A stretch of 61,223 nt of DNA, taken from positions 1 through 61,223 of the IMG/VR virus record IMGVR_UViG_3300028844_002929. One strand, given 5' to 3'. How positions within the stretch are numbered: position 1 is the first letter of the stretch; the number at the start of each line of letters is the position of its first letter. The notes below the pieces were generated by a model. That model saw only the letters and a program-made list of their open reading frames with translations, did no database searches and was not told the origin of the DNA. The stretch comes from a virus. The translations under genes were made by a program, and so were the position numbers. Of this stretch, positions 1,636 to 53,270 are shown piece by piece.

Positions 1636-2028
1636 ATGAGTTCATCCCAAAAGACTTGGACATCCAGCGAATTGGCTGTTGTCCACCATCACCTTGCTGA
1701 TATCCTAGAGGAGAGTAAGGGCGGTGTGTCCTCCACGTCCCCAACCCTGCATCGATTGCATGCACAATTCCCCGACCGCACCTTCAGTGCAGTATCCAAC
1801 AAAGTTCGTGTAGAGATGGCGCGGAAGGGCTTGGTCGAGCCTAAAACAAAACAGATTGAAGCGCTCAGGAAACAGCTTGAGCTAATGAATTCAGACGAAA
1901 CTCCGCCAGTACTCGTCTTGCCTGAGCCTAAGCCGCAGGTCAATGCTGGATCCATCGTGTCGGTCCCTTTGAAAAAACTGTACGGCAAAGTAGACTATGA
2001 AACATTTATGTCCCTGATCAATGAGTGA
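1636..2028 (+). CDS. Putative SANT/Myb-like helical protein
   Basis: 130 aa. Residues 6-65 run KTWTSSELAVVHHHLADIL and later RTFSAVSNKVRVEM, the Trp plus alternating helix layout of a homeodomain-like or SANT/Myb-type DNA-binding fold in which many copies contain RT-x-x-A-V-x-x-K. The C-terminus has a Pro/Val-rich linker and a short YETFMSLINE end. It overlaps the annealing-protein start at 2021 by 8 nt, so it belongs to the recombination operon. The DNA-binding assignment is inference from pattern only. Confidence 0.6.
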   Translation: MSSSQKTWTSSELAVVHHHLADILEESKGGVSSTSPTLHRLHAQFPDRTFSAVSNKVRVEMARKGLVEPKTKQIEALRKQLELMNSDETPPVLVLPEPKPQVNAGSIVSVPLKKLYGKVDYETFMSLINE

Positions 2029-2665
2029 ACCTAAGAAACCACGTGCGCCACGCACGACGACCTCTGTGTATACGCGCCTCAATACAGTTGATGTTCGCCC
2101 TCGTGTAAGAAAGAAAGGTAAGGTTGAGTACATATCCTGGGCGGATGCCTGGCACATGCTGATGACCGAGTTCCCTGACTCAACTAGGAAGGTGTACAAG
2201 GATGAAGCCACAGGCCTGAACTTCTTTACCGATGGACGCACCGCCTATGTGGAGGTGGGTGTCACAGTGAAGGGGACCGAGCATGTCGTAGACCTACCTG
2301 TTATGGACTTCCGTAACAACTCCATCCCCATCGACAAGATGAACAGCTTCGACGTCAACAAGACAGTCCAACGTGCTATGGTAAAAGCCATAGCTATGCA
2401 TGGGCTGGGCTTACAACTGTGGACCAAGGAGGATCTGTATGATGCGGATGAGAAAGCCCCTGTGCAACAGGCAGCCGCGCCTGTCGCTAAGCAGGCAGCT
2501 GTAGATACCAATGACCCAAGTGCCATTGTAGATGCGACCATCAACTACCTGAAGACTCTTCCGAACGTCACAGCTAAGACTAAAGCGTCTCAGAGTATGA
2601 TCAAGAAGTACAAGGACAAGCTCTCTGAGCAAGACATCGAGAAGATTAACAAGTTTGTACGATGA
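2021..2665 (+). CDS. Single-strand annealing protein (Sak3/DUF1071-like)
   Basis: 214 aa. The core is typical of the Sak3-type recombinase family (DUF1071): YTRLNTVDVRPRV, YISWADAWHMLMTEFPDST, NFFTDGRTAYVEVGVTV, LPVMDFRNNSIP, then FDVNKTVQRAMVKAIAMHGLGL. These proteins coat resected single strands and anneal them to homologous DNA during phage recombination-dependent replication. The C-terminal third is an Ala/Gln linker followed by a helical tail. It overlaps the previous gene and is coupled by ATGA to the exonuclease gene, the usual pairing of annealase and exonuclease. Confidence 0.9.
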   Translation: MSEPKKPRAPRTTTSVYTRLNTVDVRPRVRKKGKVEYISWADAWHMLMTEFPDSTRKVYKDEATGLNFFTDGRTAYVEVGVTVKGTEHVVDLPVMDFRNNSIPIDKMNSFDVNKTVQRAMVKAIAMHGLGLQLWTKEDLYDADEKAPVQQAAAPVAKQAAVDTNDPSAIVDATINYLKTLPNVTAKTKASQSMIKKYKDKLSEQDIEKINKFVR

Positions 2666-32010: not shown

Positions 32011-32400
32011 TTATTTCAGATACGCTATAATTTTATCGGATGCAGTACCTGTGATGCTATTGAAGTTTCCGTAGATGGTGTTGCCAGCCGTACACGGAAT
32101 GACGGTGTCTACCGTCGATACCCTTTCGTAGAACCCAGCATCTTTTCCCTCCGCCAAGTCATTAGCACTCCCATCGACAACCGCAGGGAATGCCGCGCCC
32201 GTATCAGGGTTGATGTACTTGACTACCTCCCCGACAGTTGCACTGTCAATGTCAACGTAAACACGGATGCCACTGCCTTTAACCGTGAGGTTTGCATCTG
32301 CTGCAGCCAAGACATGGATGGCAAAAAAATCCCCCGTGGCCGTCTGGGCTTCGTCGATCAGGACAAACTCTTTCGGAAGTGCGTTACTTGGATGTGCCAT
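32011..32400 (-). CDS. Small beta-rich virion protein A
   Basis: 129 aa, beta-rich (VDIDSATVGEVVKYINPDTG), with no recognised family. Third of three short genes leading into the scaffold gene, starting at the stop of the gene before it. Probably a capsid decoration or vertex protein; it is less like the other two, lacking their F/Y-I-x-N motif. Confidence 0.6.
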   Translation of the reverse strand: MAHPSNALPKEFVLIDEAQTATGDFFAIHVLAAADANLTVKGSGIRVYVDIDSATVGEVVKYINPDTGAAFPAVVDGSANDLAEGKDAGFYERVSTVDTVIPCTAGNTIYGNFNSITGTASDKIIAYLK

Positions 32401-32807
32401 TAGCTAAGTCTTACTGCGGAGCTATCCAATCCGAATACTCCATAATCAATGAGCTGATCCACCTTAGTCCCGTAGGCCTTAAGGCTGGTATCGTTTTGAG
32501 CGGGAAAAAAAGCAAACTCACCAGCAGCAAGTTTCATGATGACGGGATCATCACTAGTGGTGTCCGCATAGATGTAGATGTAGTCCTCCTTCTCTGTAGC
32601 GAGATTCTGAATGAATACGTAGGCTACGTCAAGCTTGTCGCTGGGCTTATTAATTACCGTCGCGTCACTCCCTGCACTGGTACCCAGCACCTTACCTCGA
32701 ATCAAACTTCCTGAGTCTGCCAAAAGGTTTGTGGAAGCACTAAGTGACAAGGGTGAACTCATCACCCCTGGACTCTGAAGCGAGATGTTGGCCCGAATGT
32801 TTGCCAT
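32400..32807 (-). CDS. Small decoration-type protein B
   Basis: 135 aa. The central pattern AYVFIQNLATEKEDYIYIYA then KLAAGEFAFFPAQ parallels YFRITNLD...AGESYLLF in 46940-47392 and KFYIKNCS...SGDWLFIPWS in 32807-33217. I take these as members of one beta-sandwich family in which a strand with I-x-N precedes an aGE/D-hydrophobic strand. Likely exposed on the capsid. Confidence 0.6.
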   Translation of the reverse strand: MANIRANISLQSPGVMSSPLSLSASTNLLADSGSLIRGKVLGTSAGSDATVINKPSDKLDVAYVFIQNLATEKEDYIYIYADTTSDDPVIMKLAAGEFAFFPAQNDTSLKAYGTKVDQLIDYGVFGLDSSAVRLS

Positions 32808-46050: not shown

Positions 46051-46090
46051 ATCTCTTTAACCTGGGGTTGTGATAATACTTGTTAGGCAT
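45914..46090 (-). CDS. 58-aa overlapping ORF before DUF5675 gene
   Basis: The frame MPNKYYHNPRLKRYEQLKKD begins with ATG 46090 that overlaps the preceding stop (TAATG) and continues in another frame over the first 137 nt of the DUF5675 gene. The first 19 residues look natural, the rest is basic and low quality. It may be a coupling ORF, or its start may join the DUF5675 frame by frameshift. Confidence 0.3.
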   Translation of the reverse strand: MPNKYYHNPRLKRYEQLKKDAAGGRKVQLGDGLNQRSIVRYLQRNEKVSVLHSRRRAS

Positions 46091-46365
46091 TAGCAGTTAG
46101 GTTTGGCGCAAGACTCAGATGTTTTCCTTCCCTTTGATTGATTCCTGCGCTTACTAACCTTCTGCTTTACCCTACGCATGAGAGAGTTCCGATTCACAGT
46201 CTTAGGACGACGGGGCTTCTCCTCTTTTTCCTCCTCCGCTTTTTCTTCCATTTCCCCCTCCATCTGAGAAGATGGTAAGAACCTAGGGTTAGACGGCGCT
46301 ACGTTTCTGCGCTTTTTCTTTTTCCTGCGGAACGGTCCGCCGTCGTCATACCTACGAACTTTCAT
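46090..46365 (-). CDS. Basic GG-motif late protein
   Basis: 91 aa from ATG 46365 (MKVRRYDDGGPFRRKKKKRR). Alternating Lys/Arg-rich and Glu-rich blocks indicate disorder and nucleic-acid or capsid-lumen binding; it ends in CAKPNC. The start KVRRYDDGG resembles KVRRKYLHGG of the 47442 gene. ATGA coupling to the upstream gene. Confidence 0.65.
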   Translation of the reverse strand: MKVRRYDDGGPFRRKKKKRRNVAPSNPRFLPSSQMEGEMEEKAEEEKEEKPRRPKTVNRNSLMRRVKQKVSKRRNQSKGRKTSESCAKPNC

Positions 46366-46943
46366 CAATAGGGGCCAAGACCCAGCATCAGTCCAATGCG
46401 CTGCAAGGTGTTCAAATCTGTAGGGATCTGCTGACCACCAGGTCCCATGACGCCTGGCACGGTCTTCGGGGTTTTGCTGTATTCGCTAATACCTATACCA
46501 AGAGCAGCAAGCAAAGCATTTCTGCCCATCATACGAGCACTTTCGTTACGAAAACCCTTTTTCATCATGTCCTCACGGTTGAACCGATCACTAGACAGGC
46601 CGTCTAACAGAAAGGAAACGTCACTAGGACGAGCGGGGAAGGATCCAGTGCGGCGACCCTCACGATTCGCCATGCGGTTCTCCTTTCTCATATCCTGTCT
46701 TAGCTGAGCCAAGATCCCTTTGTCTGCAAAGTATTGATCATTGGCAAAGCGATCACGACCCATGGGTGGGCTAGTCATGCGATCTTCATCAGGGCGCATA
46801 CCTCCATTCTCAGCCATGAAGAACGGGACTTTCTTGCCGTCCTTCTCTACCATCTTCAGGCCTTCCTTGCCATAGTACATACCGCCTCCACCATACTCCT
46901 CGGTTTCGGGACGCATGCCCCCATACTTATACATAGTCTTCAT
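46365..46943 (-). CDS. GG-motif virion-associated protein
   Basis: 192 aa from ATG 46943 (MKTMYKYGGMRPETEEYGGG); the open frame upstream lies in the previous gene. Repeated GGM/GGG motifs (KYGGMRP, EYGGGGMYY, ENGGMRP), Arg/Met-rich helices (RQDMRKENRMANREGRRTGS) and a hydrophobic C-terminus. Probably internal to the virion. Function unknown. Confidence 0.65.
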   Translation of the reverse strand: MKTMYKYGGMRPETEEYGGGGMYYGKEGLKMVEKDGKKVPFFMAENGGMRPDEDRMTSPPMGRDRFANDQYFADKGILAQLRQDMRKENRMANREGRRTGSFPARPSDVSFLLDGLSSDRFNREDMMKKGFRNESARMMGRNALLAALGIGISEYSKTPKTVPGVMGPGGQQIPTDLNTLQRIGLMLGLGPY

Positions 46944-47392
46944 GTCAATGCTGCAAAAACCTCCAACTGGCAAGACGCGCTGTCTGCCTGAGCGAGGATG
47001 TTATCTATGTCTGTCAAGTTCCCCGCCGCAGCGCTAGAATTACCAGCTGCGTTGGCATCGATCTTACTATTAAATAGAAGGTAGCTTTCGCCAGCATCCA
47101 ATTTAATCATATACTCCTCTGTACCATCGTTCTGGATGGTGATGGCAACAAAGTTTGTTGCGTCTAGATTCGTAATACGGAAGTAAGAGACGTTAGTCGT
47201 AAGCAGAGTACCCCCTGCTGCATTGGCTGCCGAAGCATCCATTTGGACTACGGTCTGCGCCGAAGCCGTACCAACATCCAAGATCCGATGGAATGTCTCA
47301 GTGATGCTCGTGACATCAATAGAAACCTCACTGCCACGCTCCCTTCCATTGAGCTCTAGCTCTTCAGTAACTTTTACTGTTAGTGTTGCCAT
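46940..47392 (-). CDS. Small decoration-type protein D
   Basis: 150 aa. The region NVSYFRITNLDATNFVAITI then MIKLDAGESYLLFNSKIDAN matches the layout of the decoration proteins at 32400 and 32807, so it is likely a fourth small beta protein of the virion surface. ATG 47392 lies 4 nt from TATATTTG, making it the first gene of this transcript. Confidence 0.65.
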   Translation of the reverse strand: MATLTVKVTEELELNGRERGSEVSIDVTSITETFHRILDVGTASAQTVVQMDASAANAAGGTLLTTNVSYFRITNLDATNFVAITIQNDGTEEYMIKLDAGESYLLFNSKIDANAAGNSSAAAGNLTDIDNILAQADSASCQLEVFAALT

Positions 47393-47396
47393 ACTA

Positions 47397-47404
47397 CAAA
47401 TATA
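47397..47404 (-). promoter_or_regulatory. TATATTTG promoter, 4 nt from ATG
   Basis: Minus-strand TATATTTG-TAGT-ATG before 47392; drives the decoration, GG-motif, lysis and adhesin genes down to 44860. Confidence 0.75.
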
Positions 47405-47410
47405 AACAGA

Positions 47411-47443
47411 TTAACCGCTGCAGCTTTCGCAGTCTTCCTCTTC
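47411..47443 (-). pseudogene. Decayed copy of the small Cys-rich gene
   Basis: Reads EEEDCESCSG and a TAA in a frame one base off the KK-stop of the upstream gene, with no start codon. The intact gene at 48449 ends PEDCESCSG. The two share 15 identical bases (GACTGCGAAAGCTGC, 47420-47434 and 48458-48472). Each copy directly follows a gene ending PFKV(I/L)KK, so the pair looks duplicated. Confidence 0.6.
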
Positions 47444-48452
47444 ATTTCTTAATCACTTTAAAAGGGGTCTTCACCTTACCGCCACTTCCGAACTCAATCT
47501 CGTATTTCTCTCGATACTCTTGAACCTCCTTTTCGCCAAGGTCTCTGACCTTCCACTGTTTTCTTTTATCGTCCCACTCTTTCACGGCGTAAGGAACCTG
47601 GCCTGTCCTAGTGGTCCCCCTACCTCCAGTATTTGCGGCCTTGAATAGATATTCTGGCTGCCTTCCAGTGGGCTCCTTGATTACTCTAAAGTTACGTTCA
47701 GGAATAGGGTCTGGCTCAGGGGACGGTTCTGGTTCTGGCTGGGGCTCAGGCTCAGGCTCAGGGGCAGAAACTTGCTTTGCAACCCTAACCTGTTCTTTCT
47801 CAAAAGGCTCTGGACCATACTTTTCTCTACGCTGTTTCTTTTCTTCTTCCGTGAGGAGGTCATAGGGTTTTACAGCGATAGGATCGTAGTAAGGAAACTC
47901 CACCTTGTCGCCACCAGGACTCTCCTGCTCATAAGGCGGATTTAATTCTCTTACCTCTCTAGGGTTTACAATCGGCACGTATTGCGTGGCGGCACCTCTA
48001 ATTAACCCTTGTGGCTGAATACCAGTGTCATAGTATCCCAGTGGAAGTCTAGGATTTACAACCGAAGTAGTCAACTCTCTAACCCTAGTAACATCACCAT
48101 CAGTCGTAGGGTTATATATCCCGTAATAGTCATCTATAGAATCTATGCCTTCATAATGACCCTGACCTAGAATGCCCCCATCACGAAGATCATTATATAT
48201 TGCTATTTCTGCATCAGTGTATTCTCCTCTAGATTTTCTAAAATGATCTGCCAGTCTTTGTAAGACGTCTTCTCCTGTTTCTACTCTAGTTTCATAAGGC
48301 CACATCTCAACCATTCTTTGTAGCCATTGAGCAGCGTCGTAAGCGTCCAAACTATCCTGTCTAGTAGCTACAGACGCAGGAAAGGCGTCAGTGCCTTCTG
48401 GAGGCCAGTTTCCATGGCTGCCTCCGTGTAGATACTTCCTTCTTACTTTCAT
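47442..48452 (-). CDS. GG-motif/KVIKK-tailed late protein
   Basis: 336 aa from ATG 48452 (MKVRRKYLHGGSHGNWPPEG), overlapping the stop of the 44-aa gene. It contains an acidic Pro-Glu linker (PEPEPEPQPEPEPSPEPDP), then NFRVIKEPTG and a C-terminal GSGGKVKTPFKVIKK. The tail matches those of 48580-52617 and 52614-53270. No enzymatic domain recognised. Probably a packaged or capsid-associated protein of the same system. Confidence 0.65.
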   Translation of the reverse strand: MKVRRKYLHGGSHGNWPPEGTDAFPASVATRQDSLDAYDAAQWLQRMVEMWPYETRVETGEDVLQRLADHFRKSRGEYTDAEIAIYNDLRDGGILGQGHYEGIDSIDDYYGIYNPTTDGDVTRVRELTTSVVNPRLPLGYYDTGIQPQGLIRGAATQYVPIVNPREVRELNPPYEQESPGGDKVEFPYYDPIAVKPYDLLTEEEKKQRREKYGPEPFEKEQVRVAKQVSAPEPEPEPQPEPEPSPEPDPIPERNFRVIKEPTGRQPEYLFKAANTGGRGTTRTGQVPYAVKEWDDKRKQWKVRDLGEKEVQEYREKYEIEFGSGGKVKTPFKVIKK

Positions 48453-48583
48453 CCTGAGCAGCTTTCGCAGTCCTCTGGAGAGTCCAGGTTGCACGTGATC
48501 TCCCCACTCTTCAGCTTCTCGGCTGTATCCTGGAGTTTTTTCTTATCAAGGAATGTCGGAGCATCCCATTCTTCTTCCTTCAT
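48449..48583 (-). CDS. 44-aa Cys-rich small protein
   Basis: MKEEEWDAPTFLDKKKLQDT then AEKLKSGEITCNLDSPEDCE and SCSG. Acidic, with C-x(8)-C-x(2)-C near the end, suggesting metal binding or disulfide. ATGA overlap with both the giant gene upstream and the next gene downstream. A decayed copy follows the next gene. Real gene likely because of the coupling and the retained copy. Confidence 0.6.
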   Translation of the reverse strand: MKEEEWDAPTFLDKKKLQDTAEKLKSGEITCNLDSPEDCESCSG

Positions 48584-51500
48584 TTCTTCAGCACTTTAAA
48601 TGGTGATTTCTTTTTGACCTTAATACGCCCGCCTTGCTTGTACCCTCGGATTTCTCCCGATCCTTGCTGAAGAGACTTCGGAACCTTAAGCTCAAACCAA
48701 GTGTTGCCATGCTCATCCGTTACAGGTTTGAACTCATATCCCAGCTTCTTGGCAACCTTGGGTAGGCGGTCATAACTCTTCATTACTGTTTTATGACTAT
48801 CGCTAACGCCTTCACCACGCAGTAATGCGTCGAGTTGCGATTGAAGGCTGCTCATGTGATTCTCTACAGCTGATACTCTTCCCTTTGCCTCTACACCTCT
48901 CCTCAAATTCTTGCTCAAAATCGCAGCTTGATCACTGAAATTAGCATAGTTGAACATTGGAGACTTATCTGGCCGACCCGAAAGGCTATGGAGTTTATCG
49001 ATATCATCCATCAAGTGCTTATAGAGGTAGTCCTTCTCCATCATCCAGTGGTAATCCTTAGATTCCTGAATAGATGCTTGATTCTGGGGTGGGGGAGTGT
49101 TCCCTGCAATAGGCATATGGAAAGGAATGTCATCTTGCGGGCTCTGTTTAGTTGTGCTTCTATACAGAGCAGCAAAATTATCTTCTACAGACGGTTCGCC
49201 CATAGGCCTGTCATACATCGTCGGAACATAATTCTCTATATACAAATCCACAACGTCTATTGGAGCCATCCGCATCCTATCCAATACAGTATGGGGCTCG
49301 AAGAACCTATTGTTAAACAGATAATTTGAGAAGCGCTCGGCGATTCTCTCCATTGCATCTATACCCCGGTCGTTCACAGCAGAGCCCCGATACTTAGTGT
49401 ATTCTTGGTAATCTGGATGCTCTAAGAAAGCCCCCGATAAATAATCTTCAGCTGGTAATTTTGTTACTACAAGTCTATCTTGAGTCGCAGGCCTCTGATC
49501 CGCTGCCCACTGAGCCTCCTGTACTATATTTTCGACAGCCGTATCCATCTGCCCTGAGCCCTTGAAATCCTCATACAAATTGGATAGTCGAACGTCACTA
49601 GAGAACGTTGCAAAGGTCTGATCCATACTGGCGTACATCTTCCCAGGGACACGACTTGCACTCGTTACATACTGATCTAGCCGACGATCGAATCGATGCC
49701 TAGCAGATTCGCTCATTGCACGCGTTACCCGACCATTTCGCCAGTGATCAGCGAACTTCATGAAGTTGTAACTATGTACAGATTTTTGCCTCGCCAGTGA
49801 TATCTCCCCATTGTATATTTTGTCAGCCGTATCTTCAGAAGAATAAATTAAATCATCAACATAATCAGGAAGCTTGCGAGCAAACTTCTCGGAGTAATCC
49901 TCCATTGAGTCAGTGCCAGTAAGGGCAGATTTACCCTGACTTACAAGAGGTGTCCTAAACAAGAGTTGCTGAGCGCCTTCTCCCAGAGCTTCTATCTGCT
50001 GGCCAAAAATAGTGGCCTCACCATTGTCAAATGGGGTTGCGGTGTTTTCGTACTGACCAAGAGGACTGTCCAAATAGTTCTGAGCGTGGTTAAGCTCCAT
50101 TTGAAGTGTCTCGAGGGCTTGTTGTTGAGTTTCAATATCCTGTTCTACGCGTCGGGGACTTCTAGTGTAGCCCTGAATAACAGCAGTAGTAATGCCAGTA
50201 GGAAAGCGGATAGCGTCATACCCAGAATTTTGACCTACGATTTGTGACAATAAGAACTCATCCTGGTTCTTCACAAAAGCCTTCTGTATTCTTTCGTCAA
50301 CAGGCCCTATCTGATCTTGTCCGAAGTCATCTATATCACCATAGATCTCACCAGTTCCAAACACCTCATCCATCTCTTGCTCCGTACCCTCCATCTCCTC
50401 GACTGCACGACTGAAGCCCTCTAAGGCATTATCATATTCTGATGCGATGTTAGCGTCTGTAAAAGTACCAGGAGGATTTATGTCGTTCTTCTCCAATGCG
50501 TCGATAATCTCACCTGAGAAAAGCTGCAAGTCGTTTGATATGCTTGCGCCCTTAAATTCTTTATCGTCTAACCACTCCAGTGTTTTTTGCCCCTCATCAT
50601 GGGCTTCAATTGCCGCCGCATATAGCTGATCAGACAATTTCCTATGCCTCCTGTCCAAGTCACTATATTCTGGGAATAGATTAGTCACCTTCTTTTGAGT
50701 GTCCATCCACCAATTGACATCATATAGGAAGGCATTATTCTCATCGATGACGCCGTCCTTCATTACCTCAGCAATCTGTTTTTTGACAGAGACACCAGAG
50801 GCCCCTGGGGCCAGATCTTCAACATCAAATCGATAAGAGCCTCCAATATTCTGGAATAGCTCGTGCGGGTTTCGAGCTTGAACCTTACCTACGGTTGGAT
50901 TTACAGTAGCAAACCTTCTGGTCAAAGTGTTGTAGGCTTCATCGGGAAAACTGTACGCGAAACGACGAGGCTCCCCAGGAGTCTGCGTGGCATCTAACTC
51001 CATTATGTTTGTCGGGAAGTCTGGGTTGTAATCGTAACTGTCTTGAATAAATCGACCCCTTTGAGCCACATCCGACTGCATTTCTCCGATGTACAAAGTT
51101 CTCGTTTGAGCCAGATTGCCCCCTCTAACAAACCCTCTGTAGTGACCTACTACATTAGGGGAGATGCTCCTCCAATGACCAGAGTCCTGACCAATGTAAC
51201 TACGACCTACAGGATTCTGAGGATTAGCAATAATAAGTTGAGTGCCAATATCATTGATCTCGGACCGTGGGCCCTGAAGATTACCGAACCCATAGTCAGA
51301 ATACGACTGAGTTTCGTCATGCACGAATCGATCACCTAAAACCTTAGCCGTTTCTTGTCGCACTGAATTCAAGTCATAGAACTCCTTACCCTTTTTACCT
51401 ATGACTGGATCCATATCCATCAAGGCATCCGTGAGTACGATCTTATCGAATTCAGACAGACCTCCTTTACTAAGGTACTGAGCCATCTGAGCCTTCGGTA

Positions 51501-52617
51501 TCAACCCTTGCTTATTAACGCGCTTCTCCAACTCACCCCCTATCATGAGGGAAGGAATCTGCTGGACGTTTTTCTCCTTACGGGCATCAATTGGACCGTA
51601 AGCGTCCTCAAATTTCTCTGCTTGATACAACCCCAACTCATGTGAAAACTGCATCGCACGATCCAGGTCACCACTAGGGGCAGCAGCGGTCATCTCCTGC
51701 TGCGTCATCCCTTGCAGCTTCTTATATGGAATCTTTGCCGCTGCCTCTTCTCCCAGCTTAGAACCTTCAATTAAGTTCCGAGTTACGCGACGCTCTGCGG
51801 TTTCCAGTCTAGGCCCGCCGCCAGGCAAAGCCCGACGGCCAAACACGGCTTCTTCTCCCGCAAGGATCTCTGCCTCCCGTGCTGCCGCCTCCGCTGCATC
51901 ATATATCCCTGACATAGACGGAGGTTGCATTCGAGCCTGGCCCTCACGACTCATCCCCGATGCTAGGCGATCTATCTCATTAGCAAACCTACCTTGCTGC
52001 CCTACTATGTCTGATGTCCGTGCTGTGATCTTAGGGTCCTTCCCCATCATACGACGGAAGAAGTTCTTGACATCCTCTGCACCCTGTCTCAACACACCAC
52101 CGACAGCAGGGCCAGAAGGCATCTTACGCATCGCAGCAGAACCAGCGGTAGCTACTAAGGATGGTAGATCGTCAGTATCGACCCCTTCCCGAAGCAACAT
52201 GTTCATCATCGCGGGATTACCCATCGCACTTAACATCAATGGCAGTTCCATATAGTCCTGATAGAACTTGTTCTGCGCATCGATCACACCCCCCGTCATA
52301 TCCAAGTAGTCCGTCACCCCCTGGCTACCAAGGTTCTGATAGACTGCAGCTAGGTCGCCCTCCGTCCTAGCGATCTGTTCGGGGACGTTGGGACTATACG
52401 CAGGCACACTACCATCAGTCACGACCTCCGCAGCAGGGAGATTCACTTGGGCAACAGGTAAATCGTATGGATCTGTAGGTACCATGGCATTTCCGCCTTG
52501 ATACGTATTGAGATAACTCAGTAGCTCCTGAACATCCTGGGGACGTCCACCTTCCTCATACTTAGATACACGCCGCTTCTTTAAGTGCGTGCCCTTGCGC
52601 TTAGATTTCGACTTCAC
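48580..52617 (-). CDS. Large polyvalent-type virion protein
   Basis: 1345 aa. The middle has TRTLYIGEMQSDVAQRGRFI and, later, FLLSQIVGQNSGYDAIRFPT-G; the end has KSYDRLPKVAKKLGYEFKPV and a WFELKVPKSLQQG segment. This series (Y-x-x-E-x-QSD, GYDA/I-hydrophobic, D-x-LP..LKK-G) occurs in large polyvalent proteins of phages and giant viruses. It begins with a basic KRRVSKYEEGGRP and ends YKQGGRIKVKKKSPFKVLKK, so it carries both shared motifs. Probably packaged and delivered with the DNA; activity unknown. Confidence 0.7.
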   Translation of the reverse strand: MKSKSKRKGTHLKKRRVSKYEEGGRPQDVQELLSYLNTYQGGNAMVPTDPYDLPVAQVNLPAAEVVTDGSVPAYSPNVPEQIARTEGDLAAVYQNLGSQGVTDYLDMTGGVIDAQNKFYQDYMELPLMLSAMGNPAMMNMLLREGVDTDDLPSLVATAGSAAMRKMPSGPAVGGVLRQGAEDVKNFFRRMMGKDPKITARTSDIVGQQGRFANEIDRLASGMSREGQARMQPPSMSGIYDAAEAAAREAEILAGEEAVFGRRALPGGGPRLETAERRVTRNLIEGSKLGEEAAAKIPYKKLQGMTQQEMTAAAPSGDLDRAMQFSHELGLYQAEKFEDAYGPIDARKEKNVQQIPSLMIGGELEKRVNKQGLIPKAQMAQYLSKGGLSEFDKIVLTDALMDMDPVIGKKGKEFYDLNSVRQETAKVLGDRFVHDETQSYSDYGFGNLQGPRSEINDIGTQLIIANPQNPVGRSYIGQDSGHWRSISPNVVGHYRGFVRGGNLAQTRTLYIGEMQSDVAQRGRFIQDSYDYNPDFPTNIMELDATQTPGEPRRFAYSFPDEAYNTLTRRFATVNPTVGKVQARNPHELFQNIGGSYRFDVEDLAPGASGVSVKKQIAEVMKDGVIDENNAFLYDVNWWMDTQKKVTNLFPEYSDLDRRHRKLSDQLYAAAIEAHDEGQKTLEWLDDKEFKGASISNDLQLFSGEIIDALEKNDINPPGTFTDANIASEYDNALEGFSRAVEEMEGTEQEMDEVFGTGEIYGDIDDFGQDQIGPVDERIQKAFVKNQDEFLLSQIVGQNSGYDAIRFPTGITTAVIQGYTRSPRRVEQDIETQQQALETLQMELNHAQNYLDSPLGQYENTATPFDNGEATIFGQQIEALGEGAQQLLFRTPLVSQGKSALTGTDSMEDYSEKFARKLPDYVDDLIYSSEDTADKIYNGEISLARQKSVHSYNFMKFADHWRNGRVTRAMSESARHRFDRRLDQYVTSASRVPGKMYASMDQTFATFSSDVRLSNLYEDFKGSGQMDTAVENIVQEAQWAADQRPATQDRLVVTKLPAEDYLSGAFLEHPDYQEYTKYRGSAVNDRGIDAMERIAERFSNYLFNNRFFEPHTVLDRMRMAPIDVVDLYIENYVPTMYDRPMGEPSVEDNFAALYRSTTKQSPQDDIPFHMPIAGNTPPPQNQASIQESKDYHWMMEKDYLYKHLMDDIDKLHSLSGRPDKSPMFNYANFSDQAAILSKNLRRGVEAKGRVSAVENHMSSLQSQLDALLRGEGVSDSHKTVMKSYDRLPKVAKKLGYEFKPVTDEHGNTWFELKVPKSLQQGSGEIRGYKQGGRIKVKKKSPFKVLKK

Positions 52618-53270
52618 TTCTTTACGATTTTGTAAGGGATCTTACCACCATCTTTATTCAAACGTGCTGCATTTCTAGCTTGCAGCGCATATCGCCCTGG
52701 ATCAACATTCATACTAGGGGCAATGAAATCATTGGAGTAACCCTGCGCCTGCTGACCCCCGCGCCCTACACTGAACATATCCTCAATGTCACGCAAGAAG
52801 GACTTGTAGCCGATATTGTTCATCCTACCAGTGAGATTCATTTCATCAATGACATTCATAGCACGGCGCTGGACATCAAGGATGTTCATAGACTCGTCTC
52901 TGGCGCCCTCATTGATCGCCCTTTGCGCATAATACTGCAGTGGCTCTGCTGCACGTCTAGGATCTAGTGAAGGCCCTAACTCACCGTATGTCAGTGCTTT
53001 GCGTGGTATTGATGAGGCAGCTGGGGCAGCCTTAGCCCCCAACCCTAAGGCTTGTCCTACAGCGCGAGCCGCAGGAGCCAAGAATCGAGCCAGGGGAAAC
53101 GTCCCTAGCAGATAATCCTGTGGACCAAATGTGTTTTGAATAGCCCCGCTGCCCCCACGAGCATACGGGGACTGAGCCATATACTCCTCCATAGACGAGT
53201 ACTGGGGGATTGTGTCTTGAACAGATGGGGATGAAGGGTCGCCACCTCCTTCTAACTTCTTGATCTTCAT
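52614..53270 (-). CDS. First late gene, GG-motif/KIVKK-tailed protein
   Basis: 218 aa, MKIKKLEGGGDPSSPSVQDT at the start and RLNKDGGKIPYKIVKK at the end, so it has both the N-terminal GG motif and the C-terminal tail. A hydrophobic Ala/Leu/Gly stretch (LARFLAPAARAVGQALGLGA, residues about 60-80) could be membrane active. It opens the leftward block from the divergent region, with a promoter-like TATCTTTA 4 nt upstream. Confidence 0.65.
   Translation of the reverse strand: MKIKKLEGGGDPSSPSVQDTIPQYSSMEEYMAQSPYARGGSGAIQNTFGPQDYLLGTFPLARFLAPAARAVGQALGLGAKAAPAASSIPRKALTYGELGPSLDPRRAAEPLQYYAQRAINEGARDESMNILDVQRRAMNVIDEMNLTGRMNNIGYKSFLRDIEDMFSVGRGGQQAQGYSNDFIAPSMNVDPGRYALQARNAARLNKDGGKIPYKIVKK

Follow-up and report, generated by a model that had tools for sequence, protein, structure and literature searches.

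A phage microprotein gene resembling the redox tail of ribonucleotide reductase, and the relic of its second copy

Within a 61,223-base virus record from IMG/VR (G000; hereafter the window, by which we mean the whole stretch of DNA analyzed), a small gene that we call the Cys gene is present once intact and once as a relic. Sequence comparison with related phages confirmed that the relic, at positions 47411-47445 on the minus strand, is a real remnant of a second copy, extending from start codon to stop. Considering both copies together, we think it likely that 47411-47445 is a dead, stranded Cys gene and that the live gene provides a free-standing version of the C-terminal redox tail of the ribonucleotide reductase (RNR) α subunit, acting in trans on the host reductase.

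The window most likely belongs to a Bacteroidota podovirus. Its terminase shows 41-48% identity to those of the Flavobacterium elemo phages and a related environmental podovirus, and its capsid protein matches PHROG 13704, with a weak match to the crassvirus capsid. The features relevant here are as follows.

48580..52617, minus strand: 1345-aa tailed gene, upstream of the Cys gene; it has only its tail in common with the 336-aa protein
48449..48583, minus strand: intact 44-aa Cys gene; the C-terminal 17 residues of its product match the NrdA redox tail
47442..48452, minus strand: 336-aa gene, apparently inserted; its start ATG overlaps the Cys stop, and its product has the N-terminal tag KYLHGG and the C-terminal tail GGKVKTPFKVIKK
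47433..47465, minus strand: tail codons and Cys start; the junction at which the large tailed gene meets the Cys gene in L007-L009 is 91% identical
47411..47445, minus strand: relic of the second Cys gene copy, with ATG at 47445-47443, body shortened and frame broken, end DCESCSG intact and TAA at 47413-47411
47397..47404, minus strand: TATATTTG, probable -7 promoter element of the 150-aa gene and right-hand boundary of the exchanged segment
46940..47392, minus strand: 150-aa gene, downstream; an intact Cys gene precedes its homologue in about 15 relatives
2021..2665, plus strand: Sak single-strand annealing protein (PF06378, E 2.5e-30), candidate agent of the exchange

Relatives were collected by scans with the flanking genes and then with the Cys protein alignment, which yielded 12 loci with the 150-aa gene and 67 with the Cys gene, with some contigs counted more than once. 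In most loci the Cys protein has a length of 41-60 aa, with an acidic N-terminal half (FLD..KLK) and a nearly invariant stretch of 14 residues at its end. The gene is under purifying selection (pN/pS 0.22 across 15 sequences) and was found as a single copy in each of the 24 records that carry it, the window included. It is absent from Pfam and PHROGs, and scans of these databases with the 336-aa and 1345-aa proteins likewise returned nothing relevant. A tblastn search of annotated phages with the Cys protein hit no named Bacteroidota phage, only an NrdA C-terminus and a Pseudomonas phage protein. Within the genome, the Cys gene sits in the late, structural strand and not among the nucleotide genes. 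It adjoins or lies near a holin or endolysin-type peptidase gene in several lineages (L030, L054, L059, L063, L064, L073 and L083; L031, L037, L039 and L040), and so often accompanies the late or lysis region.

The end of the Cys protein closely matches the end of the RNR large subunit. When a profile of the Cys protein was searched against a collection of 84,980 genomes, the single confirmed match was the end of a Bacteroidetes protein (...QAQLTCSLDSPEDCEACGS) that is itself NrdA (PF02867, E 7e-220). Among all PDB sequences, the only matches at E < 1 were to the RNR large chain, yeast Rnr1, at its exact C-terminus (VIACAIDNPEACEMCSG, E 0.01). At E values up to 0.1, the profile also matched 107 of 198 Bacteroidota genomes, nearly always once per genome, through profile positions 28-44 and in almost every case at the end of a frame of ~800 aa. 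The motif was terminal in all 20 of the frames that we fetched, and PF02867 was present in 7/7 nrdA frames tested. A direct comparison of the Cys profile with the host-tail profile (hhalign) gave a probability of 97% and an E value of 3.3e-11. In the reverse direction, a profile of the host NrdA tail searched against 49,575 phage-locus frames matched 96 frames, every one a Cys microprotein, although the loci overlap and these are not 96 independent genes.

As in RNR α tails, the Cys protein has a CxxC within its last 6 residues, preceded by C-[SN]-L-D-x-P-E. The gene is thus predicted to encode a free-standing counterpart of the class I RNR α C-terminal redox tail. It does not encode an NrdA subunit: the protein has 44 aa, and the PF02867 barrel is absent from the window and from 25 other phage records. 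Neither NrdA (PF02867) nor NrdB (PF00268) gave a match in these 26 phage records with the Cys gene, some of which may be incomplete, while the same searches gave matches in control genomes. The match to the NrdA tail spans only about 17-22 residues, and an AlphaFold model of the peptide consists of two short helices at low confidence (mean pLDDT 67). A search of the open-access literature, which leaves most subscription papers outside its scope, found no description of a free-standing RNR-tail gene in phages.

Two further observations concern the host proteins. In the nrdA region of one bacterial genome (L155), extra copies of the nrdA 3′ end lie downstream of a complete nrdA: two in frames of 66 and 25 aa, and a third that is weaker. 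Bacteroidota NrdB proteins (L125-L154) end in FxLDxDF, and the Cys microprotein has SFLD.D near its N-terminus; we considered the latter as a mimic of the NrdB C-terminal peptide and found the likeness too weak to use.

Small proteins ending in SG.[TS]CN.[DE][AS]PEECESCQ, or nearly so, occur in Pseudomonas phages GP100 (L103, 124 aa), Lyrsu01 (L158, 71 aa), UFV-P2 (L161, 45 aa) and tf (L159, about 49 aa, in a frame that differs from the annotated tf_30). Phage GP100 has no PF02867 match, and the Lyrsu01 tail has no RNR match in the PDB. We regard the likeness of these proteins to the Cys tail as a resemblance at the sequence level.

The active site of class I RNR is re-reduced by a cysteine pair carried on a flexible C-terminal tail, and thioredoxin or glutaredoxin in turn recharges this pair (PMC5704485; PMC9669993). 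Redox cysteines can also be delivered between proteins: NrdJb supplies thiols to NrdJa in trans (PMC4520616), and NrdJd tails serve other subunits (PMC5704485). From the likeness of the two tails, we infer that RNR is the target of the Cys protein. The most economical proposal, by analogy with these systems, is that the Cys protein would serve as a trans-acting arm for host NrdA, most likely aiding its turnover during phage DNA synthesis, with its CxxC pair presumably recharged by host thioredoxin or glutaredoxin. A broader version, to which we give an even chance, is that a detached RNR tail is carried as a single-copy microprotein by a large group of Bacteroidota phages and, perhaps by independent origin, by some Pseudomonas podoviruses. 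Plugged into the host reductase in trans, it would control the turnover of that enzyme, and phages lacking an RNR could thereby steer the host dNTP supply with about 44 residues.

The main rival explanation has the microprotein act on RNR as a decoy, occupying the active-site cleft of NrdA or the redoxins and slowing host dNTP synthesis, for example late in infection. This would suit the position of the gene on the late strand near structural and lysis genes. It also has a precedent in the free 135-aa C-terminus of UN-24, which in yeast produces an incompatibility phenotype and binds Rnr1 in a non-reducible complex (PMC3618301), so a loose RNR C-terminus can be harmful in trans. However, conservation of the CxxC throughout, and the closeness with which the peptide follows the host tail, are explained at least as well by a working arm, and a replicating phage needs dNTPs. 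We consider a decoy unlikely, while acknowledging it as the most serious competitor to a working arm.

A further explanation dispenses with RNR altogether and takes the microprotein to be a thioredoxin- or glutaredoxin-docking peptide or a small metal-binding protein, its likeness to the NrdA tail arising by convergence. The match is short, C-x7-C-x2-C could bind metal, and the gene is linked to virion and lysis genes in several lineages. Convergence is nevertheless rather unlikely, as the match reaches the very last residue, includes positions other than cysteine (D-x-P-E-x-C-E) and is specific in both search directions. We retain the RNR tail acting in trans as the preferred reading of the live gene.

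The relic lies at the end of the 336-aa gene, which on the minus strand terminates in AAG AAA TGA. Right after this stop, the +1 frame reads GAA GAG GAA GAC TGC GAA AGC TGC AGC GGT TAA, that is, EEEDCESCSG. The original prediction had placed a remnant directly behind the KK-stop of 47442, read it as EEEDCESCSG out of frame and noted 15 identical bases in common with the small Cys gene; its coordinates and each of these observations hold on the sequence, where the +1 frame gives LRN-EEEDCESCSG-TAA and the shared bases are GACTGCGAAAGCTGC of the intact Cys gene at 48449-48583. The same prediction took the remnant to lack a start, and this needs amending. An ATG is retained at 47445-47443, where it overlaps the TGA of the 336-aa gene as the start of the intact Cys gene overlaps the end of the 1345-aa gene, making the relic slightly longer (47411-47445).

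Comparison with relatives supports a real relic and not a bare 15-base repeat. About 15 relatives have an intact Cys gene immediately before the 150-aa gene (e.g., ...GACTGCGAATCCTGCAGCGGGTAATCATATTATATTTGTAGTATG), and in L027, L028, L029, L056, L058, L061, L062, L065 and L068 the intact gene ends exactly at the site of the relic. In these relatives, the intact Cys gene end is followed by TAATC..TTATATTTGTA..ATG and then by the next gene. A stretch of 42 bases in L055 (GACTGCGAAAGCTGCAGCGGTTAATCTGTTTATATTTGTAGT), comprising the intact Cys end, stop, spacer and promoter, is identical to the relic and promoter of the window; the 150-aa proteins of L055 and the window are only 36% identical. On the left side, the KK codons and Cys start (47465-47433) are 91% identical to the L007-L009 junction. 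The motif formed by the Cys end and the promoter was found at 11 places among 2.9 million viral contigs scanned, and each of these was an intact Cys gene already seen.

The relic is homologous to the intact gene at the corresponding place, and its reading is disrupted by an internal deletion and loss of frame. Set against the L007-type start ATGAAGCAGGAAGAAGAATGG, the relic (ATGAAGAGGAAGAC) is one base short and continues directly into ...GAAGACTGCGAAAGC... from the end of the gene, the pattern that a deletion between GAAGA(C) repeats would leave. It may thus be the product of a 36-base in-frame deletion with one further base lost. The Cys 3′ end comes in two forms: TCAGGATGA (TCA GGA TGA), found when an ATGA-overlapping gene follows (the intact copy of the window, L020, L023, L026 and L057), and GGNTAATC (GGN TAA TC), found when the promoter follows. 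Both are present in the window, the intact copy having the first and the relic the second, which indicates that the relic is the end of a copy that once adjoined the promoter.

In L057 (3988-4040; the same contig as L013), CCTCTGCGAAAGTCGCAGGGGGTAAT lies between the inserted gene and the promoter of the 150-aa gene. It resembles a decayed Cys gene end and also forms a perfect 11-bp hairpin (z -3.6), so it could be a relic or a terminator. We had considered it as a clean second relic and set it aside because of the terminator reading.

The surroundings of the relic are mosaic. L008 is 81% identical to the window over 53397-48396, which covers the large tailed gene, the Cys gene and the N-terminal tag of the 336-aa gene; L002 is 85% identical over 48438-47491, the body of the 336-aa gene; and L007-L009 are 95% identical from 47404, the first base of TATATTTG. 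Around gene 47442-48452, four different relatives account for the matches to its body, the tail codons, the relic and the promoter. At the same place, L020 has a 64% homologue of the 336-aa protein without the KK tail, and L023-L025 have a different, 437-aa protein with the same N-terminal tag. These matches and alternative bodies indicate that gene bodies have been exchanged between the Cys gene and the promoter, with short conserved edges. The 1345-aa and 336-aa proteins align only in the KK tail (E 0.07), and their bodies are not homologous. Of the duplicated cassette originally envisaged (a tailed protein plus a Cys gene), the duplication of the tail end and the Cys gene therefore stands and that of the protein body does not. 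Its central point, that a second Cys gene with preceding tail codons existed and decayed, is borne out by the intact gene at the site in relatives and by the L055 identity.

The junction is best described as the site of a gene insertion after which both the tail codons and the Cys gene were present twice; the redundant copy has since decayed. The order of events that follows is our reconstruction. Recombination would have placed a new gene body (47442-48452) behind the Cys gene and ahead of the promoter that serves the 150-aa gene, stranding a second Cys copy. The annealing recombinase Sak may have made the exchange at short matches such as the tags, tails and Cys ends. The redundant copy would then have lost its middle between the GAAGA(C) repeats, plus one more base. 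Taken by itself, the relic is a scar of ordinary phage mosaicism and recombination, if an unusually legible one.

Neighboring, mostly unrelated proteins share terminal tags in the window (46090-53270, minus strand) and in L007, L020, L026, L027, L057 and L060. At the N-terminus these consist of basic residues and then Y/L..GG (MKVRRKYLHGG, KYEEGG, MYKYGG, RRYDDGG), and at the C-terminus of GGK..(PFKVI)KK; they coincide with the edges of the exchanged gene bodies. The tags could be packaging, sorting or protease signals, and the crassvirus virion paper contains no description of them. The TATATTTG element occurs 7 times in the window (47404, 39862, 34388, 33246, 28878, 27591 and 26669), always on the minus strand and intergenic, with several copies just before a start codon and two right after terminator-like hairpins. 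These copies are probable Bacteroidota-type -7 promoter elements. A suspected homology between the 150-aa protein and the protein at 32400-32807 was unsupported (E 0.13).

A relic could have been kept for a role at the DNA or RNA level, either by extending the promoter upstream or by coupling translation to the 150-aa gene through a 21-codon leader. Its ATG does open a 21-codon frame (47380-47445, minus strand) that ends 13 bases inside the 150-aa gene, as translational coupling might use, and the corresponding L057 stretch is the hairpin described above. Yet the sequence ahead of TATATTTG is unrelated in relatives that share this promoter, and the window stretch folds little better than its shuffles (z -1.3). 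We regard such a role as very unlikely.

The suggestion that a +1 shift at AAA-UGA appends the Cys tail to the 336-aa protein fared less well still. The frame is open (KK-EEEDCESCSG-TAA), but AAG-AAA-TGA also occurs at the intact copy, where it is an ordinary ATGA overlap between the KK gene and the Cys start. The 336-aa homologues in L020 and L002 end differently, without a Cys tail, and no fused tail was seen in any relative. No second intact Cys copy was found in the relatives, where the gene is single-copy as noted above, an outcome that the original prediction had named as refuting it; this argues against a conserved function of the second copy and is still compatible with a lineage-specific event. 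Translation of the relic by frameshifting is thus highly improbable. A chance resemblance or an assembly artefact can practically be dismissed: by our estimate about 3 to 4 repeats of 15 bases are expected by chance in 61 kb, so that the repeat alone is unremarkable, but the 42-nt identity to L055 and the position at the ancestral site are not, and the repeat is too short to mislead assembly. The stranded, decayed copy remains our reading of 47411-47445.

The Cys microprotein is conserved but unannotated in dozens of uncultured Bacteroidota phages, and it now has a concrete hypothesis attached. If it works in trans, phages without an RNR would intervene in dNTP synthesis through the redox arm alone, a new form of control over a central enzyme, and the peptide could serve as a tool in work on how tails function across RNR subunits. 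Inventories of RNR genes in phages tally whole reductases and would miss involvement through a detached tail.

Compared to the class I tail of NrdA and Rnr1, the Cys protein has the same last ~17 residues, roughly [IL][ST]C[SN]LD[SND]PE.CE.C[SG][GS], with the CxxC at the extreme C-terminus. It differs in being a separate protein, mostly of 41-60 aa, in which an N-terminal half takes the place of the reductase barrel, and no catalytic subunit was found in the phages. The split class II RNR of Pseudomonas aeruginosa, NrdJa-NrdJb, offers a possible parallel in that NrdJb is a separate small subunit giving C-terminal redox cysteines in trans (PMC4520616). NrdJb, however, is a class II domain and forms one enzyme with NrdJa, whereas the phage tail is class I-like and lacks a partner in its own genome. 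Aeromonas phage Aeh1 has a split NrdA whose pieces work together as the RNR α; it encodes both of them, and the break falls in the enzyme body, whereas here the tail alone exists. The junction itself resembles modular phage gene exchange by annealing recombinases, being mosaic, with breakpoints at short conserved edges and Sak present in the genome; it differs in that a start-to-stop relic of the displaced boundary gene remains in place.
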